DNA of 64,000 nt from Amia ocellicauda (taxonomy: Eukaryota > Chordata > Actinopteri > Amiiformes > Amiidae). Each line of letters opens with the position of its first letter. The stretch's first letter is position 1. The stretch covers positions 244,501 to 308,500 of the forward strand of contig NC_089864.1 of the NCBI RefSeq assembly GCF_036373705.1, read 5' to 3'. The translations under genes and the position numbers were made by a program. Positions 1 through 64,000 of this stretch are shown here, piece after piece. The notes beneath the pieces were generated by a model, which saw nothing but the letters and a program-made list of their open reading frames with translations, did not search any database and was not told the origin of the DNA.

Positions 1-1075
1 CGGCACAGGGGCGATCCAGCTCTGGCTCCTCAAGTCGAAGGAAATGAAGTAGCGCCCATCATAGCCCCACTGCTCGAAGCCGTCTGTGCGGTTGTTCTTC
101 TCATCCCAGTCACAGCCGTACATCCACTGCAGAGTGTGGACACCTGGGGGAAACACAGCAGAGTTGCACACAGACCGGTTAAAACTTGGAGGGATTCGAT
201 TGTATTATTAAAAAGCCTCAAAGGCCCAGACGTCAAGAACAGTAATAAAATGAGCACAAAATGAGGGAAATAAGAACAAGGGTGTCTAGGAGTGAAAACA
301 TTTTGTAGTGACCTGCACTGTGGTTGAAATGTTGCATCACCATCACCAAACCCTCCTGCAAGATCAGATGAGCATTATGAGCAGCACCAATCTGGTTCTC
401 CCAGTACTGAGGCCTGTCGCTCCGCTCCATCCAGCTGGTCTTGGGCACCATCCTCTGCGTGTTGCTGTCATAGTAGACAAACGGCTGCCCATCCACCTGC
501 CCCACGATGGAGAACTCTGGGAGCCCACTGACACCAGAGATAGCCGTGTAGAAGTAGCGCAGGGAGTGGGTGGCTGAGGGGAAATAACAGGCCATCGATA
601 AATCAATATTAAACAAATATTCGTCCCCCCTATAAGACAAAAGGCAAGACTTTCTCTCTTTTGTTTAAAAAATAAATTAAACCAGTTTCACAAATGTCTA
701 AGCTTTTAGTAAAATCTCTCATATTCCAAATCTGTAATTGTATTTAATCATACACAAATGTTGGGACACCGTACAGTTTGGTACAGTTTTAGTATATATC
801 TTATGTTCTTATGTTATTTCACTAAACAAAGCGTAAGCATATTTAAAGCGTACGTAACTGGTCTTATTTTCCATGCATGGTGCACGATCAACATCAATAG
901 CACTGCCTGTGGCAATAATATTGGTACTATTATTAAAATGGTACAGTAACCCTCGTATTAATGTTAATGTTAATCATAATAATAATTGTGTCATGCCTGG
1001 TCCAAGGCCTGTGTGATGTGAAAACCTACCTGACACAGCGGACTGAACTCCACACAGCAACAAGACCAGCAGCAT
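1..1075 (-). CDS. MHC class I heavy chain, classical type, gene A (3' part outside window)
   Basis: This is the 5' half of a class I heavy chain, the peptide-presenting membrane protein that pairs with beta2-microglobulin. Exons on the minus strand: leader 1075-1030 (46 bp, MLLVLLLCGVQSAVS), alpha1 573-313 (261 bp, 87 codons) and alpha2 from 143 to beyond the window edge. All three junctions have GT/AG signals in phase 1, as usual for class I genes. Alpha1 starts THSLRYFYT and has the PEFSIVGQVDGQPFVYYDS strand. It ends FNHS, the conserved N-glycosylation site at the end of the alpha1 helix. Alpha2 has the YGCDWD cysteine and the GYDGRYF motif. The reading frame is open in all visible exons. 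The second half of the alpha1 helix differs strongly from genes B and H, as expected in a peptide-binding groove. An ISRE-like site lies about 95 bp upstream. Whether alpha3 and the membrane exons are intact cannot be seen here. Confidence 0.93.
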
Positions 1076-2276: not shown

Positions 2277-3830
2277 AATCGCACACTCTGTCTGCACTGG
2301 GACCCAGAGCGTGCCGGGAACAGCCAGGATCTTCATAGTTGGGGTGCTGGATAATGACCATATCAGCTACTTCGATGCAGTGAATGAAGTGGCCCCGCGA
2401 CAGGACTGGGTGAAAGGGACCCATGGGTCAGAATACTGGCAGATCACTTCACAGAGAGTAGCCGACACCCTTCAGACCTTCCAGCAAAATGCCAAAGGTA
2501 AGACCACCAATAGAGGCTTTTCTTTGATCAGCACTCAGACTACAGCATAGGGATTATTTTTCATAGCAGAGACCCTTAGCCTTACAGTTGTCACAAAAAT
2601 ACACTTTTATCAAATAGTGCTGTAGGTGTAAAATACAATGCAACAAAGTACAGTATAGTAAGTACAAAATACAATATATGATGATATACAGCATCAGTTC
2701 TAGTTAAAATAATATCAAAATGAAGTGTAGAGTTTCATCCCTGCTGAGAGCTGTGAATACCAGCATATTTCTAGCACTGCATCTGTTAGATGAACAACAC
2801 GAAAAAACACTCAATTATGAGAGAAGCAAAAACGGATTGATACAATTCTAAACTGATTTATAGGCGGTGCAGTGGCTGCCTGTGACCCAGGTTTGATTCT
2901 GCCTGTATGGAGTCTGCGCGTGTGCGTGTGTGTGCGTGCACGGCCCTGTATTTTGTACACGGCCTGTGTGTGTATTTTAATTCCAGGTGTTCAGACTGTG
3001 CAGCATATGTGTGGCTGTACGCACTACGATAACGGCTGGGCTGTGACAGGCTGGACTATCTCACCCTGAACACCAGCACCCGGACCTGGACCGCTGACAA
3101 CCACAGGGCCCTCAAAATGCTGCAGTGGAAATCAGACTCAGACTACACTCAGGACGTGATGATCTATCTGCAGCAGTACTGCTTTGTTTGGCTGAACACA
3201 TACATTGAACATGGGAGGCAGTTCCTAGAGAGGAAAGGTGAGCTGAAGATTTGACTTCAGTTTCTTGACTCCATTAATGATTGTATTTCAATAACTGAAA
3301 CGTGTTTATTTTAGTTTTCTCCCAGCGTGTGAACTTCTTAATATTTAGGCTTGGTCCAAAGTTGTTTCTACCAAGTATGACTCGGGGGTGCGGGCGGTGA
3401 ATACTTATGCAACTAACACATTCGTTTTTATGTTTAATAAACATTTGTTTCACAATAAAAACATATTTTGCACCTTCAAGGTGTTGTGTATGTGGTGTTA
3501 ATCAAAGGGAGAGAATCCCAATTACACCCAATCAGCTCCAGGGTAAGAGAGAGAGGGAGAGAGTCACCTTTGGGTAGGATGGCTGGGCTGATGGCTTCTT
3601 ATTGTGTGCGCCCAATGAACAGGTGTGAATAAAACTGAGAAGGGGGTGAGAGAGAGAATGTGTTCCACAGATTGACGGATTCCCACAGAGAAGAGCGCTG
3701 AAGTGGCTGTTTTATGTGCTGTGTTTCAGGGCTTGAAATCCTAGGAATGAAGATGATCATTTTCATCACTGTCATAGTAGCTGCTACTTTTGTCACCTTG
3801 TTGTTGATGGCGGGCTTTAGCGGGCCGCGC
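2277..3830 (+). pseudogene. Divergent MHC class I-like gene P, broken
   Basis: This is a class I-like gene of the same divergent type as genes F and G. The alpha1 exon (2277-2497, 221 bp) and alpha2 exon (2987-3237, 251 bp) keep good splice sites in phase 1. Neither length is a multiple of three, whereas intact gene G has 225 and 255 bp. Alpha1 loses frame near its start: HTL is followed out of frame by VCTGTQ, then VGVLDNDHISYFDA. Alpha2 opens with VQTVQHMCGC, shifts frame around 3035-3060 and then reads LDYLTLNTSTRTW to HGRQFLERK. No alpha3 exon lies between 3238 and 3729. A probable transmembrane exon follows the acceptor at 3729 (reads GLEILGMKMIIFITVIVAA), but unrelated repeat sequence starts after about 3830. 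No leader exon was identified. It cannot make a normal class I chain. Confidence 0.8.
3345..3590. repeat. Remnant of a DNA transposon end
   Basis: The stretch contains a GGTGAATACTTATGCAA motif and AT-rich flanks like the terminal parts of Tc1-type elements elsewhere in this window (for example the GTGAATACTT ends at 16390-17415). No partner end or transposase remains. Confidence 0.4.
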
Positions 3831-6685: not shown

Positions 6686-6702
6686 ACTTTCGCTTTCGCT
6701 TC
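6686..6702 (+). promoter_or_regulatory. ISRE-like element upstream of class I gene B
   Basis: The sequence ACACTTTCGCTTTCGCTTC has three TTTC-type half sites with ISRE spacing. An inverted CCAAT (GATTGG, 6758-6763) follows about 60 bp downstream, an ISRE-then-Y-box order like that of class I promoters. The leader exon should lie downstream. Candidate ATGs are at 6776, 6838 and 6862, but none gives a clean hydrophobic leader with a phase-1 GT donor. Confidence 0.6.
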
Positions 6703-8978
6703 TGATCTGCGCAGGCTGTTCCACCCGGAGGCTGGGGCTGCACCGGCTCTGCACTGCGATTGGCCGAGGCAGCTGATGTTTGCTGCTGCTGTTGTTGTTG
6801 ATCTTGTGTTCTTGATTGACGCGCAGTTCTTGTAACAATGGACTCTGCTGATGACGCAGTCATGTCTCTGGCTGTGTACTGGCGGCGCTGTGCTCTCTCT
6901 CACAAGGGACTTTGACCAGGAAATAGACATGTATTTTATGAACTATTATTACATATATTTAGATCTTTTTAGAACTATTACTGTCCGCAAACAAAAATAA
7001 CATTATTCTCCACACTGTGAACCCTGGAGCCTCTAGGGATGATGTGACGTCACATCTTCAGGCTGTGAACAATGACCAGTTTAGTGCTGCCTGCTGTTCT
7101 CCTAAGACATCTGCCCGACATGTTCTGTAACAAAATACGTTTTTAATAATTTAAACCTGCAGTGTACAAATCAAAGACTTATAAAAAGGGGGTTGTGTGA
7201 TGTACACTAGATGTAAAACAACATGCAATATTTAGTTTTGTATATTGCAATATTTGAACATTGCACTTTAATAATAACTGCATCATAGAAAAGCAAATAA
7301 CTCCGTTCCATAGAGACGGTGTCAATGCTTACTATTAGTGTATGAGAGACAGGGAGTCATCTTTTATTTCAGTAATTAACTCCGATAAAGTTGTGCTTCT
7401 CTTGGCCAACTGCATATTGTTCAGCAACTATCTTTCATTACATATATTTAAAATGTAACACTGAAGAAATGCAGTGCCTGTATCGTTGTTTCACCGTACT
7501 GTTATTTCACTTGCAGTCATTCACTCTCTGCACTACTTCCACACTGGGGTCTCTGGTGTCAGTGAGGTCCCAGAGTTCTCCATCGTGGGCCAGGTGGACG
7601 GGCAGCAGTTTGTCTACTATGACAGCAAACACAGAGCGCAGTTCCAAGGACTGACTGGATGGAGTGGAGCGAGGGGCCTCAGTACTGGGACATAGAGACT
7701 CAGACTGCTGTTGGTGTTCAGCAGGCCTTCAAAGCCAACATAGGAACTGCGATGCTGCGCTTCAACCAGTCCGGAGGTGAGTTAAGACAAACATGCATAC
7801 ATCTCAGCTTGTGCAGTGCACACCTTTATAGACAGAGGGGTCGCAGCTGGCACATACCTGCTGCAGATGCACACGCACGGTTTCTGTATGGTCACTACAT
7901 GGGATCAGCGCTATTGCTTGGTATCTCTTCTTTGAAAGTGTTCCTGATTTTCTAGGTGTGCACACTGTCCAGGAAATGTACGGCTGTGAGTGGGATGAGG
8001 AGGACGGCACCTCAAGGGGGTTTGATCTGTACGGGTATGACGGCAGGGACTTCCTCTCATTGGATTTGGAGTCTCAGATCTGGGTGGCCCCGGTGCAGCA
8101 AGCGTTCCTGACCAAACTGAAGTGGGATCAGGACACAGCCTTGAATGAGGGTGTGAGGAACTACCTGACTCAGACCTGCGTAGAGTCCCTGAAGAAGTAC
8201 ATCGCCTCTGGCAGGAGCTCTCTGGAGAGGACAGGTACAGTCTGCCAAATCTTGGCTGATATCCTTCAAACTGGAGTTGTAAAATTAGATTTATATCTCC
8301 TCTTTTCACCACCTATCACAGTTGGGTTGTCTGGGCAAAGCTTCTAAGGGCTTCCTCTCTCTCTCCCTCTCTCTCCAGTCGCCCCCCAGGTGTCTCTGCT
8401 CCAGAGGGACCCCGGCTCCCCCGTGTCCTGCCTGGCCACGGGCTTCTTCCCCAGAGACGTGGTGCTGTCCTGGAAGAGAGACGGACAGGAGCTGCATGAG
8501 GGGGTGGAGAGCGGGGAGCTGCTGCCCAATGGGGACGGGACATACCAGGTCAGGAAGAGCCTGAGGGTCTCACCTGAGGACCTGGAGGGACACACCTACT
8601 CCTGTCATGTGGATCACCTGGGAGAGGAGGTCATCATCAAGTATTGGGGTGAGAAAGATGGAATACACAAGGGGAATTTGCAGGCGGAGAGGGAAAGTAG
8701 AAGGAGAGGATTAGGTTATGAAAAAACTACTGGGAAAGCACTGAGAGAGACTGGTGCAGAGACAGGGAGATTATGGAGCCGAAGAACAGGAACGTGGGTA
8801 AGAATCCAGACAGCCTGAGTAGAGAACAGTGGCACTGGAATTACTGTCGCTTAGGAGGGGGTTGAGGTAAGACCCTGTTTGATGACAGGAGCTGTGAACT
8901 TTGTGAGTCCAGCACTGACCTTACTTCAGTCAGCCATGTGCCTGTCAGAGTCTCCAGTGACCAGTGTGCTCTCTCTCC

Positions 8979-31689: not shown

Positions 31690-33053
31690 GATTTCTGTTA
31701 AGTGTTTATGACTGACTGACTGGACACTACAGTACATTAACACTGACTGACTGACTGGACACTACAGTACATTAACACTGACTGACTGACTGGACACTAC
31801 AGCACATTAACACTGACTGACTGGACACTATAGCACATTAATACTGACTGACCGACTGGACACTACAGCACATTAACACTGACTGACTGGACACTACAGC
31901 ACATTAACACTGACTGACTGACTGGATACTACAGCACATTAACACTGACTGACTGACTGGACACTACAGTTCATTAACACTGACTGACTGACTGGACACT
32001 ACAGTACATTAACACTGACTGACTGACTGGACACTACAGCACATTAACACTGACTGACTGACTGGACACTACAGCACATTAACACTGACTGACTGGACAC
32101 TACAGCACATTAACACTGACTGACTGGACACTACAGTACATTAACACTGACTGACTGGACACTACAGCACATTAACACTGACTGACTGACTGGACACTAC
32201 AGCACATTAACACTGACTGAGTGGACACTACAGCACATTAACACTGACTGACTGACTGACTGGACACTACAGCACATTAACACTGACTGACTGACTGGAC
32301 ACTACAGCACATTAACACTGACTGACTGACTGGACACTACAGTACATTAACACTGACTGAGTGGACACTACAGCACATTAACACTGACTGACTGACTGGA
32401 CACTACAGCACATTAACACTGACTACTGGACACTACAGCACATTAACACTGATTTACTGACTGGACACTACAGCACATTAACACTGACTGACTGACTGGA
32501 CACTACAGTACATTAACACTGACTGGACACTACAGCACATTAACACTGACTGACTGGACACTACAGCACATTAACACTGACTGACTGACTGGACACTACA
32601 GCACATTAACACTGACTGACTGACTGGACACTACAGCACATTAACACTGACTGACTGACTGGACACTACAGTACATTGACACTGACTGACTGGACACTAC
32701 AGCACATTAACACTGACTGACTGACTGGACACTACAGCACATTAACACTGACTGACTGACTGGACACTACAGCACATTAACACTGACTGACTGACTGGAC
32801 ACTACAGCACATTAACACTGACTGACTGGACACTACAGCACATTAACACTGACTGACTGACTGGACACTACAGCACATTAACACTGACTGACTGACTGGA
32901 CACTACAGCACATTAACACTGACTGACTGGACACTACAGCACATTAACACTGATTTACTGACTGGACACTACAGCACATTAACACTGACTGACTGACTGG
33001 ACACTACAGCACATTAACACTGATTTACTGACTGGACACTACAGTATATTAGA
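31690..33053. repeat. Minisatellite, about 35 bp unit, 1.36 kb
   Basis: Several dozen tandem copies of a unit reading GACTGACTGACTGGACACTA followed by CAGCACATTAACACT. Unit length varies by 4 bp steps (31, 35 or 39) through the number of GACT words. Variants carry GTACATT, TTCATT, or TGATTTACTGAC. The array starts about 35 bp after the beta2 poly(A) signal. No open frame of note is present. Confidence 0.97.
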
Positions 33054-49247: not shown

Positions 49248-52200
49248 AGGCAGGAGTAGGTGTGTCCCTCCAGGTCCTCAGGCGAGACCCTCAGGCTCTT
49301 CCTGACCTGGTACGTCCCGTCCCCGTTGGGCAGCAGCACCCCCCCGCTCTCCACCCCCTCGTGCAGCTCCTGCCCGTCTCTCTGCCAGGACAGCACAATG
49401 TCTCGGGGGAAGAAGCCCGTGGCCAGGCAGGACACAGGGGAGCCGGGGTCCCTCTGGAGCAGAGACACCTGGGGGGCGACTGGAGAAAAGAGAGAGAGAG
49501 AGAGAGGGAGAGAGAGGGGTGAATATATGGGCTGCACACCTAAGACACTGACGCTGCATATCTGCCACACTGCACTGGAACTGCACACTCTGACATGGAT
49601 AGAAGTGCGTGACACTCTGCCAGTGCTCAGTGGTTAAGTGCTGGGCTGTGTTCACTGCACAGTGATCTGACTAGTTGCACTTCTCTTTCTTCCGTCTCTT
49701 CTACACCAGTCCCCCCTTTAAAGGCAGCTTTATTACAGCCGGAGAATTTACCTACATTAAAGGTGATGTATAAATATATCCATGAACTGTATTTAATCAA
49801 AGTTAATAAATAAATAAGTGGACAACCATGACATGCTTTAACGTTCTGTTCAAAGTACAGTATTCATTATCATTTGTTTGGATAAATTCCTTGAGTTCCT
49901 TATATGTGAAATGGGATGTACCAAATATTAAAAAGGGGGAAATGAAAAGGTTTTCTCTGTGTTAAATGACTTAAAAGAAATTACAATTTAAGATGTGTTA
50001 ATATTTCTATGACATCTGAGTGTCAACACATAGCTAAACTAAACTAATAATTTGCTTATGGGCAATAGATTACATGTTTATCGATAACCTTCCTCTCTCC
50101 TCTGACGTTCTTGAAAGCAGGCAGAGCCACTGTGATGATTTGTTCAGCCTCAGCCTCAGCCTCACCTGTCCTCTATAGGGTCTGCCTCCCATATTGGAGG
50201 TATGCCTTCAGCGAGTCGACGCAGTGGTATTGCAGGTACATCTTGACGCTCTTGGTGAAGCCCCTGTCCGGCTTCCACTTTACAATAATTATAACAATAA
50301 TCATCAGTCAGTAGTTATTTTTGTATTTTTTAATTATTGTTATAAGTTGTGTTGTAAGCCTTTCAATTTTTCCACCCAGAAAAAAAGGACAATAACGCTT
50401 TTGAATTTGACTTTTCTAAGCTCTGCACCACCAGACCCCACAACAACAACAACAATAACAACAACAACCACCCACAGCTGAAGCCCCAGAGCGGTTTGGT
50501 TTTTCTGTTCCTCTTCCCAATAGACATGATAATGAAGGAGCTCCATAGCTCTGTCAGTATTCAGGGGCAGAACCGGTTGACTGACGCTACTCTTACCCTT
50601 CACTTGAGCTTTGAAGGTCCTCAGCATGTCAAAAGACAAATACGAGTTGGTCTTCCAGTCCTGGACCTTCTCCAGCCACCCCTGTCGAGAGATCAGTTCC
50701 CTCATGGTGCTGTTATAATAGCTTAGGACCTCACTGTCCATCATTCCTACCACCACAATCTCTGGTACTGCTGGAATTCCTGTGGTCCCAGTGCAGACGT
50801 ACTGCAGGCAGTGAGGCACTACAACACAGATGCACCTGATCAGTTTTACAGAATGAGACTCTGCATTCATAGATGCAGGAACACAAACTCACAATTAGAG
50901 AACAATAACAACGGTTGACTTATAAATACAGAATGGAACTGCATTGTAAAGAACTCACAAGTGACTGTACATTTACTTCATAAACAACAAACTAATCTTC
51001 AGCAAATAATCAGGCAAAATTGAAGTTAAACACAAATGTGGTTAGGGCCATGTGGCATTTTAACCAACATGGCCAGACCAATCACCCAAGGAGCCCCCTC
51101 CACATTGTTTATTTTGTATTAAATCAAAATCGCAGAAACCTGATTTTCAGAGGGATTTAATGACCAGAATCCTAGAGGCAGGAAAAAGGGTCAAGGCTGG
51201 GCTGAAGTGTGAATTAAACTGCACTTTCCCCTGATCTACTTACTTGCCAAAGTGAGTTTATTGCTGGATTGTCTGATTCATGCGAGTAGAATGAGGTGCT
51301 ACACATCATGGTGGCTTCTAATCTGAGCCCAGGGTGCGTCCAAACTGCTCCCTCGCTCCCTACGCCCCTTGGTTAGTGTCACTTCCTGACACCATAGTGC
51401 TCTGGAGTGAGCGAGGGAACAGGGTGCAGGAAGGAGGGAGAAGCCCTGAATGGGATGGCCTTCAGCACTCATCCATTTCTCCCTCCTTCCCTCCCTCTCA
51501 GAGTGAGACAACCCTGTTCATGATCACTTCAATAGTCAAGGTCACATTTTCACTTTTGGTTTACCTTTGCCAAGGGAATTTTTTTATTCGATTTTTTTAA
51601 ATGACAACAATTTCTCAACTCAGGTTACCCAAACTATTTTGCTACAATTTAGATATTACTAGCGATTCATATGACTGGTAGCTGCCAGCTCTAAAATGAC
51701 ATCATGTTTCTTTTCTTTCGATGTGTGGCATACACATACTTTCTTTCAATTTGTTTGCTCCACAAAAGAAAACTTAGCAGGTATTTTCTTTTCTTTTCTT
51801 TGCATGACTGCAGGAAGTAATTGTAATTTATTGTTGTAAAACTATACACACAAATGGAACATACTGCACATTGAAAATGTATTCAAAATATAATTAATTA
51901 ATAAAATCAATCAACAGAATTAAAGTTCTGTGGTACACTAGACTGCTTAATTATTTAAATAAAACAAAGAGCAAGAAATGTTCAGATGTTATTCTACAGA
52001 TAGTGTATCCCTCTCTATGAGTTAAACCTGTCTATCCATGTTGCCTTACTCTTCTATTCCGACTTCTGGGCCAAATTGTATCTCCTGTATGAGAGGAGAG
52101 AGGTTTACTTGCTCACAAAGACGCCAGGCTCTGCACCTCGATGCCCCGGGCCATTTAAACGGACAAGCAGTTCCAGTCAAACTCACCGGGAAGAGAGGTC

Positions 52201-52458
52201 TGGATGTGGCCCAGAAACAGCAGGAACGCGATCATCATTTGACTCTGACTGCTTTCTCTGCGTGAACAGGCCATGCCTGCAGCAGTCTGAGACGGTCTTC
52301 CTTCTGCTTGACTCCGGCCGATGGGGTGGCTCCTGCTGACAGGCTGCGATCATCATTTCTCTGCGGTATTATCACTGATAATATCGGACACAGGAGACCG
52401 AGCAACACGCCCAGCTAGCAAACTTGTTTGGTCAGGTCACTTTCAGCACTGAGCCGTT

Positions 52459-52960: not shown

Positions 52961-53308
52961 GACAACACGTTGCCCTCGGGGCTGGAGCCTGACACGGTAG
53001 TATCTCGAGCCCTTCTGGACACAAACAACGAGGACTTGAGTACGAATTTGCACCTCCGAGCGTCCTGCACACCCTGCCTGCCCAGCGGAGCACCTGTATC
53101 GATATCACACCATGGGGCCTGTTACCTGGTCTATTTAACACCGCTGTCCAATCCAGCCATGCCGATCTGCATTTGTCCCTTTGAGCCACATGGGTCACGG
53201 CTGCTACTCGTATGTAAGTTGGCCCGTGTACAGCAGCCTATGGGGATTGTGTGTATATACGTGTACATTATGGGCTGTCCACACCTGACAGTGGCTGTAC
53301 AGCTGTGA

Positions 53309-53407
53309 GCTGCACGAGGGGGTGGAGAGCGGGGAGCTGCAGCCCAACGGGGACGGGACGTACCAGGTCAGGAAGAGCCTGAGGGTCTCGCCTGAGGACC
53401 TGGAGGG
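53309..53407 (+). pseudogene. Orphan fragment of an MHC class I alpha3 exon
   Basis: This 99 bp segment encodes ELHEGVESGELQPNGDGTYQ and then VRKSLRVSPEDLEG, almost identical to alpha3 of genes B, F and H. It begins and ends inside the exon without splice sites and is in opposite orientation to flanking genes F and G. No other class I exon lies nearby. Confidence 0.9.
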
Positions 53408-53807
53408 TTTGATTTAATGCAATCAAAGAACAGTTCTTTTGACACTGGGGTCGTGCAGGGTCAAATCTGCAGGGCAGAGAGATTGGTTTATGCAGCTGTT
53501 GGAAAAATGCATAAATGATAATTACTAATTGATCAATATTTCCATAGGTTTCAGCAATAGAGCAGTTTTTTTAAATGTGAATTTCAGAGCGAGGGTCAGA
53601 TCCCCAGCAATTAATATACACAGGCAGGAAACCTCTGATTGGCTGCAAAAAACTAAGTGTATACAGTAGTGTATACACCTGCAAACAGAAACACCTGGAT
53701 ATATACACCTGTACATAATTAATTTCAGAGCACATTGAGACATTAAACTGTGTAAATTTCAATAAAAACTGGAAAAATGTAGGTGACCGGTAGAGTATAT
53801 AGTATAT

Positions 53808-54692
53808 ATACACCGATCAGCCATAACATTATGCACCTGCCTCATATTGTGTAGGTCTCAAAACAGCCCTGACCCGTTGAGGCATGGACTCCACTAGACC
53901 TCTGAAGGTGTGCTGTGGTATCTGGCACCAAGAGGTTAGCAGCAGATCCTTTAAGTCCTGTAAGTTGTGGGGCCTCCATGGATCGGACTTGTTTGTCCAG
54001 CACATCCCACAGATGCTCGATTGGATTGAGATCTGGGGAATTTGGAGGCAAAGTCAACACCTTGAACTCGTCATTCATCAGACCAGGCCACCTTCTTCCA
54101 TTGCTCCGTGGTCCAGTTCTGATGCTCACGTGCCCATTGTACGTGCTTTCGGCAGTGGACAGGGGTCAGCATGGGCACCCTGACTGGTCTGCGGCTACGC
54201 AGCCCCATACGCAACAAACTGCGATGCACTGTGTGTTCTGACACCTTTCTATCAGAACCAGCATTCACTTTTTCAGCAATTTGAGCTACAGTAGCTCGTC
54301 TGTTGGATCGGACCACACGGGCCAGCCTTCGCTCCCCACGTGCATCAGTGAGACTTGGCCGCCCATGACCCTGTCGCCGGTTCACCGCTTTTCCTTCCTT
54401 GGACACTTTTGATAGGTACTGACCACTGCAGACCGGGAACACCCCACAAGAGCTGCAGTTTTGGAGATGTTCTGACCCAGTCGTCTAGCCATCACAATCA
54501 GGCCCTTGTCAAAGTCACTCAGATCCTTACGCTGCCCATTCTTCCCGCTTCTAACACATCAACTTTGAGGACAAAATGTTCACTTGCTGCCTAATATATC
54601 CCACCCACTGACAGGTGCCATGAAAACAAGATTATCAGTGTCATTCACTTCACCTGTCAGTGGTCATAATGTTATGGCTCATCAGTGTATAT
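53808..54692 (-). mobile_element. Internally deleted Tc1-like transposon
   Basis: The terminal inverted repeats are ACACCGATCAGCCATAACAT (about 53809) and its approximate complement ATGTTATGGCTCATCAGTGT (about 54669). On the minus strand the transposase has its helix-turn-helix half (AEKVNAGSDRKVSEHTVHRS) up to WSDE. It then jumps across a deletion to MNDEFKVLTLPPNSPDLNPI. The central Asp-containing block is lost. The fragment at 15590-15900 is from the same family. Confidence 0.88.
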
Positions 54693-54795
54693 ATTTTAGT
54701 ACGTTTTTCCTCTCCTTTCTTTTTCTCTCTATTCGTTCTGTATAATTATCACTATCCTCTGCATGTGATTATCCTACTGTGAAATGATTGTCCTG

Positions 54796-54835
<40 letters not shown>

Positions 54836-56690
54836 ACCTTGTTTCTTTCTTTTGTATTTCAGTGGGTCTGAGAATTTAAACTTCTTTGGCAAGACTGCTG
54901 CTGATGGCCATGCTAATAATGCACTTCTGAATTGAACTGACAGAGAGGGGGTGTTGTGTATGTGACTGGGAGAGCGAAAGCGCAGGATGTGTGGAATGAG
55001 AGACAGAGAGAGGGAGGAAGCCAGTCAACCTGCTCAGTCATTCTTTGCCTGGAGACGGGTGATGCTGCAGTGCTGATTGGTTGTACTCTTAGTTTTTTGA
55101 AGCCAATCAGAAGTGTCCTGCCTGTGTCCATTAACTGCACGGGATCAGACCCTCGCTCTCAAATTCACATTTCAAATTCCTGTAGCCTATGGTAATATAG
55201 CTGAATCAGTAATTATCATTTATGCATTTTTCCAACAGGTGTCCTTCAGGTGTGAGCAGGACTTCAGGGTCACCACCATTACACATGTATCACAGTTACA
55301 ATCGCAGACAATTGTTTATTGCATTCATATTATGAACAACAATATTCAGAAGGCACCTGCACTGACACATTCAAAATGCCTTTTTAGATTAAATAGATGA
55401 TATATAGATATAAAACCAGCTTGAGTGTGTCAGCCTTTATAGCTTCCTGCTTGACTTCTGCTCATTTAATTTACAGTAAAACACTGCACATCCAAAAGCT
55501 CTTGACTCTGCTGAGGGAGCGACTCTCAGAGACATCAGATACACAGAGGAGCCCGAGACATTCAGCCTCTCTTTTGAATCTGTCCGTCTGTCTGAGCGGG
55601 GGTCTGGGCTGGTGTACGGAGGCAGATCAGTGGATGCTGGGAAGGAATGATTGAGGCTCAGTTTCTCAGGCTTGGGGCAGAGGTTGTGCTCCTCCCGAAC
55701 TGTGGATTTATCTCAATTTGATCGCTAAAACAAACACCACCCACTTGGACAACTCTGATTATGGGTTTTGTTAAGGTACAATGCTTCATTTGAAGCAACC
55801 CTTTGGGTCCCAGTGAATCAGGAACCCCTGATTCCATTTCCCATGACACCCTCGCCTCAAGAGACAGAGCTACAGGGAAGAGCACAATACAGCGCTGTGC
55901 AGTGTGTGCAGTATAGCTTATGTTCAGAATGCATCAGACTGCTTTGGTTTGGTATTGTTCTTTCCTTTGTTGGTTTGTCTGATGCATTAACCATTTATTT
56001 CAATGCATTGGCATCTAATCATTAATTTAATGATTTTTTGCTTGAATTTTCACTGGGAGTTTATTTTGCATTTTTGTTTTTTAAACACTTTAGGATTTTT
56101 AAGTTTTTTTTAATGATTTTAGAACTGAATTAAAAAATGTTTTAATCAAAAGTATTAAAATGTGTATGTTTTTAACTATGTAATGTAAAATACTTAACCA
56201 ATAAACAGTATTTTATATCTGTAGTGTGGACAACAGACATGGACACGGCTACTCTTATACACAGTTCTTTATTTTAAATTATTATTAACATTATTTATAT
56301 TATTTACACAACCATCCATTATCAACCAGCGCTTCCTCCAGCTCAAGGTCACAGGGATTTAAAAACAAAGAATAAAATACTGACGCTGGCAGTATCATGT
56401 GAAAGTATTCAAGTTCTCTGTGTGAGTGAGTGTGTGTGTATGTGTTTATTCTTTCTTTGAAAAATGCCTACAGAGTTGACTGCTGCCGTGTGAACAGCAA
56501 AAACAAACTCTGGTGCTTTAAACATCCCATAATGGTTTTAACAAGCTACACACACAGACAGCATGGGACTGGCATTGTGGGACACGGTCCACGGGCTCCA
56601 GCCATCACTTCTCCACATCTCCTCTGAGTCCGTACGGTTCAGGCTCAACGCTGAGTCTGTGTCTAGACGCATGCAGCCTGCTGGGAGCCG
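54693..56690. other. Spacer before class I gene G
   Basis: A CA array lies at 54800-54830 and a LINE family N tail scrap at about 54845-54945 (CTTTGGCAAGACTG, GGCCATGCTAATAATGC, GAATTGA). Otherwise no gene was seen. Possible poly(A) signals for gene G (TTTATT on the plus strand) are at 56268-56273 and 56445-56450. Confidence 0.45.
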
Positions 56691-56692
56691 CT

Positions 56693-59291
56693 CTACACTC
56701 CAGGACACAGAGACTTCTTCTTAAGGAAGCGCCTGGAACAAAGAGAGAGATGATTGCGGTCTGTCCCCCAAGTCGCAGTGTGTCCAGGGGGCCAAAGCCT
56801 AGGTCTCCTCTTCACCTGTCCTCTGTCCTTGGCTCTCCCACTACTGGCTTGTACAGAGAATGTGGTTCAGTCTCCTGATTACTAGCGCAAAAAATGAAAG
56901 TCTTAAAAAGACACTGAAAATGAATTTAATTTCCTTTAAACCTGAAGAGCTTCAAGCTTCATTATGAATGTGTTTTGTTGTACAGAGAAACTCCCTGGTC
57001 ACAAGCTGAGATGGCAGCAAATAAGCCCCCCCCGCCTTGTCAAGGCTTGGCTGAATGCATGTCCCTCTGTGCAGCCTGCTGTCCCTCACTGAGCTCTCAC
57101 CGCTCTCACTAACCTGACTTTTGTGGAAGCAAAGATGATGAAAAGGGTCCCGCCCAGCAATGCAATTGCAGGCATCCACAGAAATGTGCGGGAACGGCCT
57201 GAAACACACAGCACACTGAGTCTTACACACCCACAATGACACATCAATACAGGACACTCCTCTGGTGTGCCAGTCCTCAGTCTCTCCATTCACTCCACTG
57301 CCAATCTGAAAAGCATCATCGGCATTGGTGAAGCCTCTCTCTTACCCCAGTAAGTAACAGATGCCTCTTCCAGGCTGGCGTGTTTCACGTGGCAGGAGAA
57401 TGTGTGCCAGAGCCTTTCCCAGCCGCTCAGTCTCAGGCTCTTTGTGACCTGGTACGTCCCGTCCCCATTGGGCAGCAGCTCCCCGCTCTCCACCCCCTCG
57501 TGCAGCTCCTGCCCGTCTCTCTGCCAGGACAGCACAATGTCTCGGGGGAAGAAGCCCGTGGCCAGGCAGGACAGCTCACAGCCATTATAGTGCACTGACA
57601 CCTCGTGGGGGACTGGAGAGGAAGAGAGGAAGAGAGAGGTCAGGCTTTGACAGAGACGTGTCTCTCAGAAGCAGCAGACACTCGTTAACACCGGGGCAGC
57701 AAGGTGGTGCAGTGAACACAGAACAGTTCGATTCTACAGCAACACAAATCTGCAGACTCCACAGGGACTCATCAAAACATTACAACATAACATTATACAT
57801 GCACTGTTACAGAACTACGTCCCAGAGAAAAATAAACCTTCACAAATAACAAATACGACAAAATATACTGTACACACGCACAATAACTGCACTGCGCTCG
57901 CTATGCACTGTAACTCCAGAGACAGAGCTAAGATATGTGCAGACCGTGGTTCTCTGCCCTCAGGGAACCAGTTCACAGTCACAGAGTGGTCAGGCTCCCA
58001 TCCCATTAGTCAGACCCACAACACAACCACACTACACACCTCACAGCAGAACACAGGCATTAGCGCAAGGCTCTCAGACTAGGGGGTGAAGCTCAGGCCA
58101 TTCTCAGGCCACCTTCAACCACTCTCAGGTGTGACTCATACAACACGCACTCCCATCAAGCTTTCGTCATCTCGTCCCACCTGACCCATCACCTCTGATG
58201 ACGTGGAAATGCTCAGACCCACCTTTCCTGTCCAGAGCCTCCCTGCCGTGCTCCAGCAACTTCTTCAGCCACTCCAGGCAGTGCTGCTGCAGGTACGTCC
58301 TCGAACTCTTCAAGCTCGGGGTCCTGCGCGGATGCCAGGGACTGACGGTGGTGAAGGCCCAGGTGTTGGTGTCTAGGGTGAGATAATCTTTGCCTTTGTA
58401 GCCGTACTGCCAGAAATATCGGGTTGCATTGTCGTCACCCTGTTTGCAGCCCCACATCTGCTGCAGTGTTGCAATGCCTGGAATTGAAACAGGAACGCTC
58501 ACTGGGCTGGCCTGCAGCTGGCACTCGCCCCCAGGATGTGCCCGTGCTTATATTGCTCCTTCATATTGCACAATCACTCCTGTGTTCTTCTGTGTTTGGA
58601 GTTGTTGCCCTTGTATGTCACTGTGGAGGAATGTGTGAAACAATTGGGGAAAACAACCGTAAAGTTGGCCTGTTGTGTGCTGTGGTGTTGGGTGTGTGTT
58701 TGTTTCATTGTCTTAATGGAGGTGTCCAGCAGTGGACCATGCCAGAGTGGCTTCAAGCGTTGTCAGCGTGACTCTCAGTGCAGGGGCAGCTCTTACCTGC
58801 AGTGCGTACAGAGTTCAGGGTGTCAACAGATACATAGGAGTTAATCTTCCAGCCCTGTAAACCCTCTTCATCTTTCAGCCACTCCTGCCGAGGGACCACC
58901 TCACCCACTGTGGTGTTGTAGTAACTCAGCTCCTCCTTGTCCAGCATGGTGACCACAATCACCTCCGTCACTGCCACTGGGCCTGAGGCGCCAGTGCAGA
59001 CATAGTGCAGAGAGTGGTTTGCTGCAGCACAGACAAGGTCACACCGCACAAAACAGGTGGGAATCAAATTAGTTAGTTAGTCACTAAACATGAAACTCTA
59101 AGGATAGCCTTTGACTATTTCCTGCTAAATCCAGTGTTTCATTAATGCATTGCGGCAGGATCGGAAGAAAGAAACTATCTCTGACTCCATTAGACTCAAC
59201 TCAACTCGAGTGCTGCAGTCCCAGTATCTCAGTCACACTCACCGGCACAAGCGCACTGGACGGCGAACAGGGCCAGCAGGGCTCGCAGCAT
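56693..59291 (-). CDS. Divergent (non-classical) MHC class I gene G, apparently intact
   Basis: Six minus-strand exons have consistent phases: leader 59291-59243 (49 bp, MLRALLALFAVQCACA), alpha1 59021-58797 (225), alpha2 58477-58223 (255), alpha3 57612-57346 (267), transmembrane 57198-57114 (85) and tail 56732-56693 (40, stop TAG). They total 921 bp and 306 residues. Alpha1 (ANHSLHYVCTG, EVIVVTMLDKEELSYYNTT) is 12 codons shorter than in the classical genes. Alpha2 has both cysteines (MWGCKQG, HCLEWLKK) but lacks the TKxKW peptide-anchor run, so classical peptide binding is unlikely. Possible N-glycosylation sites are NTT in alpha1 and NAT in alpha2. Alpha3 keeps the immunoglobulin core. The tail is short and basic (RRFLKKKSLCPGV). 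It may belong to one of the non-classical fish lineages; which one cannot be settled here. It shares a promoter region with gene H. Confidence 0.9.
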
Positions 59292-59492
59292 CGCTGTCTG
59301 TGGCCTGCACTCGGGTGATGTCCGCCTCTCGCACCTGTGTGACCCTTCGGCCACCGACGCACCACCGACGCACAGCAGCCCAGCGGAGACGCGGTTTCGC
59401 TTTCAGTTTGACTCGCGAATTGCGTGGTCGCTGCAGCCAGTCAGATTATTCTGTTCTCTCTGATTCATGTGACACAGCTGTCCGGCGCAGGG
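59292..59492. promoter_or_regulatory. Shared divergent promoter of class I genes G and H with ISRE
   Basis: Only 201 bp separate the ATGs of genes G (minus) and H (plus). GGTTTCGCTTTCAGTTTG at 59393-59410 is a good ISRE with three TTTC/TTTG words, nearly central and about 83-100 bp from either ATG. It is the only such site seen, so it probably serves both genes. Confidence 0.7.
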
Positions 59493-62400
59493 ATGCTGCT
59501 GGCGGTGGCTCTGTGGATACTGAGTGCGGAGCTTCATGCGGCTTCTTCAGGTATTTCGACACAAACTCTACACACTTACCTAGATACCCTTGTGTGCATA
59601 TCAACATATGGTATAGGCCTACTGAAGTGTTACTGTAGCGAATTTAACTATGTCTGCGTCCTGTCAATAACTTCAAAATACAAACAGAGGCGGGGAGACG
59701 ATTCATTCCGTTTCATCGGGATTAAATAATGATATGAGACTGTGTTAATCTGGTACAAATAGGCGACTACTAGTAGTAGTTATAACAATCCCTGCTCATA
59801 AACCTTAATTCTGTGTGCGATGAGAAGATTAGCCCGTCTGCGTCAATATTTCGGCGCAATAAAACAGTGATACTTTACAGGTTTTACATGTAATGATGCT
59901 GTTTTGGTTTCGTTATTTTAATGCTCTGAGACGGCCGTCCCATCGCTGGTCTGTAAATGTAATTATATTTAGTAGTTTACAGGATTTCCCTTGTGAAATT
60001 CCCTATAGACCTAAGTATACTGTGGTTCACGTGGAGTAGAATGTATAGTATAGAATATATGTGTACTTCCCGTTCTTCTTTTTCTTAAGGGTTGACTAAT
60101 ACAATCCTACAAACCTGCAGAGCTGGACGACTTTAGGTTCTCAATCCTGGCCCGATGGGACCCTGTTTCTGCTGGTTTTCATTCCAACCCACTAATCAGA
60201 CACTAACATGGAGTCACCAGATGAGCTCCACCTGTTTAAGAGCTGGAAACCATTGAACATGTGGTCATAAGACAATGAAGGGTTCAATATGGAGTTCAGG
60301 TTGGAGTGAAAACCAGCTCCCCAGGACCAGGGTGGAGACCCACTGCTATAGATGTTCTAGTTCAGTCCCATGTGATCCTAGGGTATGTGTGAACCTCTGT
60401 GATCTTCAGTATTACAGCAGCTGGGTTAATCTCTACACTACTGCCAGTCCAAAATGAGTTCATTTCCCCTCCGCCACCCACTCCCTGCGCTACTTCTACA
60501 CGGCCATCTCTGGTGTCAGTGGGCTCCCAGAGTTCTCCATCGTGGGGCAGGTGGACGGGCAGCCGTTTGTGTACTATGACAGCAACACACAGAGGATGGT
60601 GCCCAAGACCGACTGGATCAGGTGGAACGAGAGGGACTGGTACTGGGACACAGAGAGTCAGAGCGCAGCTGATCACCAGCAGACCTTCAAAGCCAGTTTA
60701 GGCACCGCAATGAAGTGCTTCAGTCACACTCAGGGTGAGGACGCACTCACACACACAGACACACACACTCACACTCACACATTGACCCACTCAATGGTGC
60801 TTGTCCCCGTGTTTCCCGCAGGTGTCCACACCCTCCAGGAGACGTACGGCTGTGAGTGGGACAGCGAGCACGGCCTCCAGGGGGGCTTTGATGAGTACGG
60901 GTACGACGGGCGGGACTTCATTGTGTTCGACAGGAGGACCGGAGCCTGGGTCTCCCCGGTGCCGCAGGCCCTGCCCACCAAGATGAAGTGGGATGACAAC
61001 AGGGACCTGAATGAGGGGCTGAAGCTCTACCTGACCCAGGAGTGTGTCACCTGGCTGAAGAAGTACCTCCGCTACGGGACGCTGCGGCTGGAGAGGAAAG
61101 GTACAGCTGCATCTTTCAGGGTCATTTTTATACCAGTCCAGGACTTCAGAAATACCAAAACATATTTCAATCAGTAAAATAAATGACACCACAAGATGAA
61201 ATGGGTGAACAGTTAGTTCCTGACATTGGTTTGGGTCGAGTGTCACACCACGACTCCCGCACAGCTTCTCTCCATTGTGCACCGGGAGGTCTTATTGTCT
61301 CTCTGTCTCTTCAGTCCCCCCAAAGGTCTTTGTGTTGCAAAAGGGATCTAAACACACAGGCTGGGCTGAGCTGTCCTGCCTGGCCACAGGCTTCTTCCCC
61401 CGAGACGTGGTGCTGTCCTGGCAGAGAGACGGACAGGAGCTGCACGAGGGGGTGGAGAGCGGGGAGCTGCTGCCCAATGGGGACGGGACATACCAGGTCA
61501 GGAAGAGCCTGAGGGTCTCGTCTGAGGACCTGGAGGGACACACCTACTCCTGCCATGCGTACCATCCCAGCCTGGGAGAGAAGATGCCATTCATCTGGGG
61601 TGAGAGAGAGAGAGAGACAGAGAGAGGGTCAGGAAAGACTGGAAGCAAGAGAAAGGGACCTAAATCGTGTTTGTTTTACTCATCTTAGTGTTGTTTCCTC
61701 TGTGGGCCTGTCTCGGGGGTGTGGGGTCATCACAGCTGAGGATGGGGGGAGTTAATCTTAATCCTACAGTGGACATGTGCGGTATATGAATAGGCCGGTT
61801 GGGTGTGGTCTGAAGAGCCAGGCAGAGATGTGACAGCTGTGTGGTGTGTTCTTGCAGTGCCCAAGACACACTTCCTCAGGATACCCCAGCCCAGTCCACT
61901 GGCCGCAGTGCTGGTGATGCTCACTGTTTACTGTGTGTTCATGCTGATCAGCTGCAGGAGGAAACAGCGATCAGGTGAGACGGGACCGACTCCCCTACAC
62001 TACCCTGCCAGGATTGACTCCCCTACACTGCCCTGCCCTGCCAGGACTGACTCCCCTACACTGCCCTGCCAGGACTGACTCCCCTACACTGCCCTGCCAG
62101 GACCGACTCCCCTACACTGCCCTGCCAGGACTGACTCCCCTACACTGCCCTGATAACTACATGATCACTGCATTCACCCTGACAGACACACTGACTGACT
62201 GACTGACTGATTGATTTGACTATAATGCTGAGGTGTCAGTCATAACTGGAACCATATTCACAAACCTGTTTGTCTCACCTGCTCCTGTGGTTAATGTAGG
62301 TGCTGGGGGCTCGCCAGGGTCGTGGTCATCACTCGCGTCTGTGATTGTGACAGTACTACAGAGGCCCAGTAAGTACAGAGCCTGTGCAGAGTCCAGACAG

Positions 62401-62584
62401 AGCTCAGGGCTGCTCAGTTTAGCGGTGAGAGGGATGTGTAGAGCATCGAGAATTCCCACGCATGTAAACCGAGCATTCAGAATATAGATCCCCACATCTG
62501 CAGATGTGTGTGCCATGTGACTATACTGTGGCAGCTGCAGTAGTGACCCCTGCACTCGCTCTCTCTGCAGGAAGACGCACATGA
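59493..62584 (+). CDS. MHC class I heavy chain, classical type, gene H (alpha1 acceptor altered)
   Basis: Exons: leader 59493-59550 (58 bp, MLLAVALWILSAELHAASS), alpha1 60474-60734 (261), alpha2 60822-61100 (279), alpha3 61315-61599 (285), connecting/transmembrane 61858-61974 (117), optional 62300-62368 (69), terminal 62571-62584 (stop TGA). Without the optional exon it encodes 337 residues. All exons are open. Alpha2 has YGCEWD, GYDGRDF, TKMKWD and ECVTWLKKY, the classical fish pattern. Alpha3 has both cysteines. The expected alpha1 acceptor reads CCTCCG where gene A has CCTCAG, so AG has become CG. An in-frame AG at 60457-60458 would add five residues but lacks a polypyrimidine tract. The usual N-glycosylation site ending alpha1 is absent (CFSHTQ for FNxS). 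A poly(A) signal is at 62784-62789. Functional status depends on the acceptor. Confidence 0.88.
60130..60345. mobile_element. MITE-like inverted-repeat element in gene H intron 1
   Basis: CTGCTGGTTTTCATTCCAAC near the left and its near complement GTTGGAGTGAAAACCAG near 60300-60317 are arms of an imperfect inverted repeat. The outer parts (CCTGGCCCGATGGGACC and GGACCAGGGTGGAGACC) also pair. It is similar in style to the element at 4360-4511. Confidence 0.65.
61985..62152. repeat. Minisatellite of about 28 bp in gene H intron 5
   Basis: About six copies of a unit containing GACTCCCCTACACTGCCCTG and CCAGGA lie just after the donor of the membrane exon. Short ACTG repeats follow at 62180-62215. 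Confidence 0.9.
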
Positions 62585-62599
62585 GGAGAGGTTCAGGAC

Positions 62600-63699
62600 A
62601 GCAGCAGAGACAGCGCCGCTACTACTGCGAGACAATGACTGCAGTGGACGGTTGCACAATGGGCCGAGAGACTGTCTCTCACTCCGCTCACTGTGTGTCA
62701 CCAGGAGCAGGTCATGATGGGAGAAGGTGCAAGACCTAGACACACACTGTTGGGTCGAGATGGCAAAAGCAGCATCGGGGTGCAATAAAGAACTGCCCTC
62801 AGTTGCTGTGTGTTACCTCCCAGTCTCTCCTCCATTAAGGGGAAATTACAAAAAGGGGTCATTTCTATTAAAACAACAATCATGTAACAGAGGGGAAGCT
62901 GCCCGTGTTCAGAAGAGCAGCACAGAGGAGGGCTGTGGGGTCGTGTCTCACATTGTTGTATCGCTCAGAGGCTGGGTTTAATTACATTATTTCTGTGTTT
63001 TTAGCTGTTAGCATGCAAACCTAAGTTATTTATTTTACTTGACAGTTACAGATGTGAAGTGGGTGAAGTGAGGGATGTGACTGGCTGCCTCTTTTTCAAA
63101 TCTTTTTTTATCTGTTGCTGTAAATTGTCAGTAAATATTGAGCAAATAAAGTTAATTTTAAAGTTGAGTTTGTTACAGTAAATCCCAGGCTGCTCTCGTC
63201 TGGCGCAGGGCCGTTCTGCGTTGGGCTGTGCTGCCCGTGAACGCCTAGACAGCTCCTCTGCTTCATCTGCACAGAACAAGAGTTTGTACCTCTTTTGTAG
63301 TTTGTAGTTTAATTGGATTTCTACAGAATACATGTCGTGTAGAGACTCGCCCCTGTTTCTAGTCTGAATATAAGCTTGTGCTTTTGAATAACTCCAAACA
63401 GGTTGCCCTGGTGGGCACGAAAATCAAAGCATTTCCGTCAGTCAGAAAGGGTCTTTTTGGCGGCAGTGAAGTTTTCTGACAGTTTTCAGTGTTCCGACTT
63501 AAAATCAGAAATATTTGGAAGTCTTACAAATAGTCGGAAACCCCAATTCCGACAGTTCTGGAAATTACGTATCTAATTAGCATACATACTGTCCCAACAT
63601 CAAAGTTTTTAGCAGGCAGTTCTCGACAGAAATATATCTTCCTGTTTCAAGCTGTACTGATGGAATTGAACAGTTTGAAAGAGGTGCTATCAGCAGACA
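62600..63699. other. 3' region of gene H and spacer
   Basis: The poly(A) signal at 62784-62789 probably ends gene H. A second AATAAA is near 63145. No further gene was seen. Confidence 0.45.
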
Positions 63700-63745
<46 letters not shown>

Positions 63746-63930
63746 TTTATTTCTTGGCAGACACCCTTATCCAGGGCGACTTACAACATAAGTGCAAAAC
63801 AAAGTGCAAAAATACAGTTAAGTACAAGGCATCAAACATTACAAATTCAAATTTACATTAAACAAAGCAATTCAAGATATAATACATTTTACAACTTCCA
63901 ATTTACACAGTTCATTAATACACTACTATT
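63700..63930 (-). mobile_element. SINE/LINE-type retroposon tail with ATT array
   Basis: An ATT array (63703-63744) is followed by CTTGGCAGACACCCTTATCC and a long stretch that is the near-exact reverse complement of 44830-45000. The two copies must be young. Confidence 0.8.
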
Positions 63931-64000
63931 AAACAGTTCATGCTAATGTTGAAATGTGTACATTAATAACCCCTTATCAGCATGCCTGGATACCAACTCA

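Follow-up and report, generated by a model that had tools for sequence, protein, structure and literature searches.

Two divergent class I genes of Amia ocellicauda flank a 201-bp spacer with a single interferon-stimulated response element, a possible two-way promoter

Introduction

Can two unlike class I genes of the major histocompatibility complex (MHC), read in opposite directions, be driven by one interferon signal acting on one short piece of DNA? This question is raised by a locus of Amia ocellicauda, in which a non-classical class I gene (G) and a classical-type one (H) start head to head, 201 bp apart, on either side of a single interferon-stimulated response element (ISRE). The locus lies in a 64,000-nucleotide stretch of contig NC_089864.1 (C21:244501-308500), here called the window, whose positions are used below unless another contig or locus is named; the genome searched comprised 988 Mb in 385 contigs. 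An initial annotation of the window had proposed that one interferon signal could induce both genes together. We put at about 0.52, slightly better than even, the probability that the spacer is a compact two-way class I promoter that responds to interferon and is probably asymmetric, and that today perhaps usefully serves only G.

Results

To begin with the geometry, the G start exon (59291-59243, minus strand) and the H start exon (59493-59550, plus strand) were both located, and each is followed by a GT donor. The putative two-way promoter between the divergent start codons (59292-59492, no strand assigned) is 201 bp long, within the limit of 1 kb that we set for such a promoter, and the head-to-head arrangement first noted for the pair was thus borne out. 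The GC content of the spacer is 0.61 and its CpG observed/expected ratio is 1.02, compared with 0.41 for the window. Neither a TATA match nor an exact CCAAT turned up in the spacer. When 59243-59550 was used to query the genome, it matched only itself, with no second copy or allele, and an Rfam scan of the window gave no match.

An exact ISRE, GAAAGCGAAAC, occupies 59404-59394 on the minus strand (the plus strand reads TTTCGCTTTC at 59395-59404), close to the spacer midpoint at 59392. It stands 103 bp from the ATG of G and 88 bp from that of H, as an ISRE near the start codon does in promoters of the ISRE-SXY type. The single central site described earlier was therefore found as an exact core. 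It is the sole GAAANNGAAA match across 54,726-64,000, with none else for 4.6 kb on either side; 15 GAAANNGAAA matches and 2 of the 11-base form GAAANNGAAAC were counted window-wide, and the surrounding 178 kb holds 29 of the 10-base form and 6 of the 11-base form. Dinucleotide shuffles of the spacer contained the 11-mer in 3 of 5000 cases and the 10-mer in 19 of 5000, and of 3544 overlapping windows of 201 bp taken from the 178 kb around the spacer, 20 contained the 11-mer and 100 the 10-mer. Because it is rare both in shuffles and in such windows, the spacer ISRE is more than chance.

A class I promoter would be expected to carry an ISRE anyway, and this favors a reading in which both the closeness of G and H and their single ISRE came about by accident as class I genes were shuffled, and the two genes are not jointly controlled. 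In line with that reading, divergent class I neighbors make up 3 of 10 adjacencies in the cluster, about the 2.5 expected at random (a count without M1 and M2, which lie at C21:1.28-1.30 Mb, and without the class I-like matches found elsewhere in the genome on other contigs), and divergent pairs are common in fish, reportedly accounting for 13% of medaka genes (PMC11676430). Nevertheless, the 11-mer appears in only 3 of 5000 spacer shuffles, and with 201 bp and one ISRE any response through the site acts on DNA that the two genes share. We regard mere chance neighborhood as very improbable.

The two genes themselves were then compared. Gene G (56693-59291, minus strand) has an open frame of 306 amino acids in six exons (59291-59243, 59021-58797, 58477-58223, 57612-57346, 57198-57114, and 56732-56693) separated by GT..AG introns, with a hydrophobic membrane-like segment and a short basic tail. 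It matched Pfam MHC_I and C1-set with 68.4 and 59.6 bits, above the cut-offs of 28.3 and 21 bits, and is thus a class I family member. Its alpha-1 exon measures 225 bp versus 261 bp in H, and its alpha-2 exon 255 bp versus 279 bp; the end of alpha-1 and part of alpha-2 are missing. Eight peptide-anchor positions (Tyr7, Tyr59, Arg/Tyr84, Thr143, Lys146, Trp147, Tyr159, and Tyr171), were inspected, and only 2 of the 8, at positions 7 and 159, are kept in G, which therefore lacks the classical anchor set and probably does not present peptides in the usual manner.

G is not alone in this shape. The class I cluster spans C21:212.9-387.9 kb in the order N1 (+), K1 (+), A (-), B (+), C (+), D (-), E (+), G (-), H (+), K2 (-), and K3 (-), and alpha-1 ends 10-12 residues early in four of these genes, namely B (2277-3239), D (49250-52238), G (56693-59291), and N1 (L010:6493-7191). 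In an alpha-1 tree of 10 rows, with C (frameshifted), E, and K3 left out and four of the seven inner branches lacking resolution, these four were split from the classical types with support of 100/98. The description of G as divergent and apparently intact thus agrees with its open frame and with its place across a supported split from H.

Gene H (59493-62584, plus strand) would encode 360 amino acids if exon 2 is joined at a non-AG boundary. Its exons are 59493-59550, 60474-60734, 60822-61100, 61315-61599, 61858-61974, 62300-62368, and 62571-62584, its stop codon lies at 62582-62584, and the rest of the frame is open. Scores of 159.9 bits to MHC_I and 61.7 bits to C1-set place it in class I. 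The acceptor of intron 1 (60472-60473, plus strand) reads CG in place of AG, while AG is present at 4 of the 5 acceptors checked, GT is present at 6 of the 6 donors checked, and gene A has AG in the equivalent context. H is therefore not an intact gene with normal splice sites. Three alternative acceptors were considered: one 15 bases upstream is in frame and is a GAG with a poor pyrimidine stretch, one 26 bases upstream is a better-looking CAG that shifts the frame, and an AG 57 bases into exon 2 is in frame and costs 19 residues. The lost acceptor may be an allele or an assembly error.

The designation of H as classical type holds in part. By alignment at the eight positions, 7 of the 8 anchors are kept, and a Cys stands at position 84; the nearest PDB entry is 5h5z, a carp UAA molecule, and H has this Cys where the carp molecule has Arg84. 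Furthermore, the Asn-Gln-Ser site of H is replaced. Because of the CG acceptor before exon 2 and Cys84, a normal H protein, and with it a working classical molecule, is doubtful, and H is probably impaired.

This damage is what speaks for a one-sided survivor, in which the promoter serves G only and H is a decaying pseudogene with a leftover start exon. G is intact and H is not; the alternative AGs of H are out of frame (26 bases upstream) or a weak in-frame GAG (15 bases upstream); Cys84 and the lost Asn-Gln-Ser site add to the broken acceptor; and B, C, D, and E are damaged too, within the same window as H. On the other hand, H is otherwise open to its stop codon, with AG at the other four acceptors and GT at six donors, the order of the promoter motifs faces H, and a broken acceptor does not stop transcription. 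We consider such a survivor unlikely, yet worth keeping in mind.

The order of motifs was examined next. A Y/NF-Y-like box, CTGACTGGCT, lies on the minus strand at 59435-59444, with one mismatch to CTGATTGGYY and 30 bp from the ISRE. Scanned with a loose X1 consensus, the spacer gave many weak matches. Elsewhere in the cluster, TTTCGSTTTY together with a Y-type box is present before N1/K1, before C, and in the interval between A and B, the box of C having two mismatches to CTGATTGGYY. Gene C (6688-8650), a classical-type gene, has an exact GAAANNGAAA site and a Y-like box of its own; its alpha-1 is frameshifted, and the filter used found no leader exon for it. Toward the plus-strand genes N1/K1 and C the order is ISRE, Y, start, and the spacer between G and H presents this order on the H side, the Y box being inverted.

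Such an order would suit an ISRE-Y core that is H's own, the G start exon having come near by rearrangement and G being weak, not interferon-driven, or started elsewhere. The match in order with N1/K1 and C supports this, as do the homology of the G leader to the N1 leader (76.7% over 86 bp) and the fact that N1 has its own ISRE-Y core, in the usual order, approximately 160-230 bp before its ATG. Against it, the intact gene of the pair is G, ISREs are active in either orientation, and gene A works, if at all, with the order seen on the G side. A promoter belonging to H alone is thus improbable.

Gene A is of classical type and was seen in part (311-1075, minus strand; leader ATG at 1075, alpha-1 at 573-311). 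Upstream of it come a Y box (1217-1226), an ISRE-like site with one mismatch (1171-1180), and then the ATG, with a Y-ISRE gap of 36 bp versus 30 bp for G and an ISRE-ATG distance of 95 bp versus 103 bp. The leader and the alpha-1, alpha-2, and alpha-3 matches of A are open, the checks being confined to these parts. The order Y, ISRE, ATG on the G side hence precedes at least one other gene that looks alive, which is an anatomical argument and not proof.

Several observations weigh against a two-way promoter. The anatomical argument from A is weakened by the single mismatch in its ISRE, whose score is equaled in 11.5% of random 300-bp stretches. The usual order of ISRE, Y, and ATG holds only toward H, where the Y-like box is merely 48 bp from the ATG and where the gene bears the CG acceptor and Cys84. 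X2/site alpha is not recognisable in the spacer: TGACGC is absent, and the best TGACGTCA match has two mismatches. Among five class I genes scored, the top ISRE score was found only in G and H, which share the site. Neither D nor K2 has a comparable proximal ISRE, so the element does not stand before every class I gene of the cluster. Nor did the spacer as a whole show convincing homology to the sequences 5' of A, C, and D; this was assessed in 12 pairwise comparisons, six of them with the spacer, in both orientations and with 200 shuffles, and was dropped at a best p value of 0.045, uncorrected.

The wider cluster contains three divergent class I pairs, A(-)/B(+), D(-)/E(+), and G(-)/H(+), and each has at least one damaged member. 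B (2277-3239, plus strand) is a G-type relic with a stop in the aligned alpha-2 stretch, and the filter used found no leader exon for it. D (49250-52238, minus strand; leader 52238-52186) is of G type with a stop in its alpha-2 remnant, and no exact ISRE is present in the 300 bp before its ATG; its partner E (53307-53408, plus strand) is an alpha-3 relic of 34 amino acids. Of these pairs, G/H is the only one in which both leader exons were found and in which an exact ISRE separates them. An excess of divergent pairs was rejected on the adjacency count given above.

A and H group together in the alpha-1 tree (support 89/87), and the 5' part of exon 2 aligns between their blocks at 90.4% over 187 bp, whereas the alpha-1 likeness of B and G is only about 37%. 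That A/B arose recently from the G/H block by inverted duplication was rejected, as only exonic stretches and one repeat align between the blocks; gene conversion is at least as likely an origin of the A/H likeness as inverted block duplication. It might also be supposed that this MHC has from old, and repeatedly (A/B, D/E, and G/H), set a classical-type class I gene back to back with a non-peptide-binding one over a single ISRE-Y core. Under such a design, a peptide presenter and an innate-receptor partner would be put out jointly, in a fixed manner timed by interferon, and G/H would be the last pair having both start exons; we think this rather improbable.

Other features of the cluster were recorded. 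Alpha-3 exons (57344-57613, 61314-61598, and others) are far more alike than groove exons, as though gene conversion had homogenised them; G and K1, for instance, share 91.5% over 142 bp. At N1/K1 (L010:2907-8001; C21:226486-227566, L011), one leader exon at C21:212907 precedes both a G-type alpha-1/alpha-2 pair (N1) and, behind it on the same strand, classical alpha-1, alpha-2, and alpha-3 (K1), and the filter used found no leader between the two; the arrangement would fit alternatively spliced products of a single promoter, a fused two-groove gene, or two partial genes. K2, with an alpha-3 frame break, and K3 are classical-type genes on the minus strand (C21:353000-388000, L018-L021) with near-identical leaders. 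An element of 0.9 kb occurs in two places, 94% identical (53802-54693 and C21:361242-362152), one copy lying approximately 0.5 kb upstream of K2, and its reading frames presumably resemble a Tc1-type transposase. A tandem array of 1.3 kb (31709-33051) consists of about 40 copies of a 35-base unit. Farther along C21, and also on other contigs, there are more class I-like matches. The class II beta matches, 9 in all, fall without exception within C21, at 441-743 kb; linkage of class I with class II is reported for bowfin, and in teleosts the two are reported to be unlinked (PMC8423624).

Discussion

From the arrangement described here we infer factor binding, interferon induction, two-way activity, and protein output as follows. 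Interferon-induced factors of the IRF/STAT type would bind the single central ISRE, and NF-Y at the adjoining Y-like box would help to open one CpG-rich, TATA-less start region, from which G would be read leftward and H rightward. Output would probably be unequal, the H side having the order usual in the cluster and the G side the order of gene A. The G product would be a class I-like molecule with most peptide-anchor residues lost, and the H transcript, classical in appearance, would have to splice around the lost acceptor and would yield little or no normal H protein.

The proposal that one interferon signal could serve both genes finds partial support in the anatomy of the spacer and is qualified for its products. 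The distance of 201 bp, one exact ISRE, the Y-like box, a CpG ratio of 1.02, and the lack of a TATA match favor it; the CG acceptor, Cys84, and an order usual only toward H count against it. Judged from sequence, co-induction of G and H is a reasonable idea, and because H is damaged, the pair may now deliver only one working protein.

A shared two-way MHC promoter, single-ISRE control of a fish non-classical class I gene, ISRE together with Y-type boxes in salmonid class I promoters, and compact divergent pairs in fish are already known. TAP1 and LMP2 (PSMB9) share a two-way MHC promoter with 596 bp between the ATGs (PMC10095295). As predicted here for G/H, two MHC genes are read oppositely from one short interferon-controlled stretch, whereas the TAP1/LMP2 partners are a transporter and a proteasome subunit, and G and H are both heavy-chain genes of class I that start 201 bp apart, H being damaged. 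In Sasa-LGA1, a salmon non-classical gene of the L lineage, a single ISRE 72 bp before the ATG was essential for interferon-gamma induction in a reporter assay (PMC11695323). G, likewise non-classical, has one ISRE 103 bp from its start codon, but Sasa-LGA1 is one gene, with no shared promoter described in the available text, and G has no L-lineage assignment.

The classical UBA promoter of salmon and trout carries an ISRE and an enhancer B/Y-type box (PMC1971071), as the G/H spacer has an ISRE and a Y-like box before a classical-type gene. UBA has in addition W/S, site-alpha or X2-like elements and a possible TATA box, in contrast to the G/H spacer with its unrecognisable X2 and no TATA match, and the G/H spacer differs in having a second class I gene on its other side. 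In medaka, 1737 divergent pairs were reported, most with two-way promoters shorter than 400 bp (PMC11676430). The G/H pair resembles them in its divergent genes, a spacer below 400 bp, and no TATA match, whereas the medaka pairs are enriched in housekeeping processes and G/H combines an interferon site with two immune genes that belong to the same family. Among the titles and abstracts listed by searches of open-licence papers, none described class I heavy-chain genes paired head to head over one ISRE.

The G/H pair and the other pairs of this cluster illustrate the decay of divergent class I pairs. If real, the G/H spacer would be a natural two-way promoter tying classical-type and non-classical class I heavy chains to a single interferon site, and hard-wired joint induction of presenters and non-presenters would be directly testable in the MHC of a non-teleost fish.

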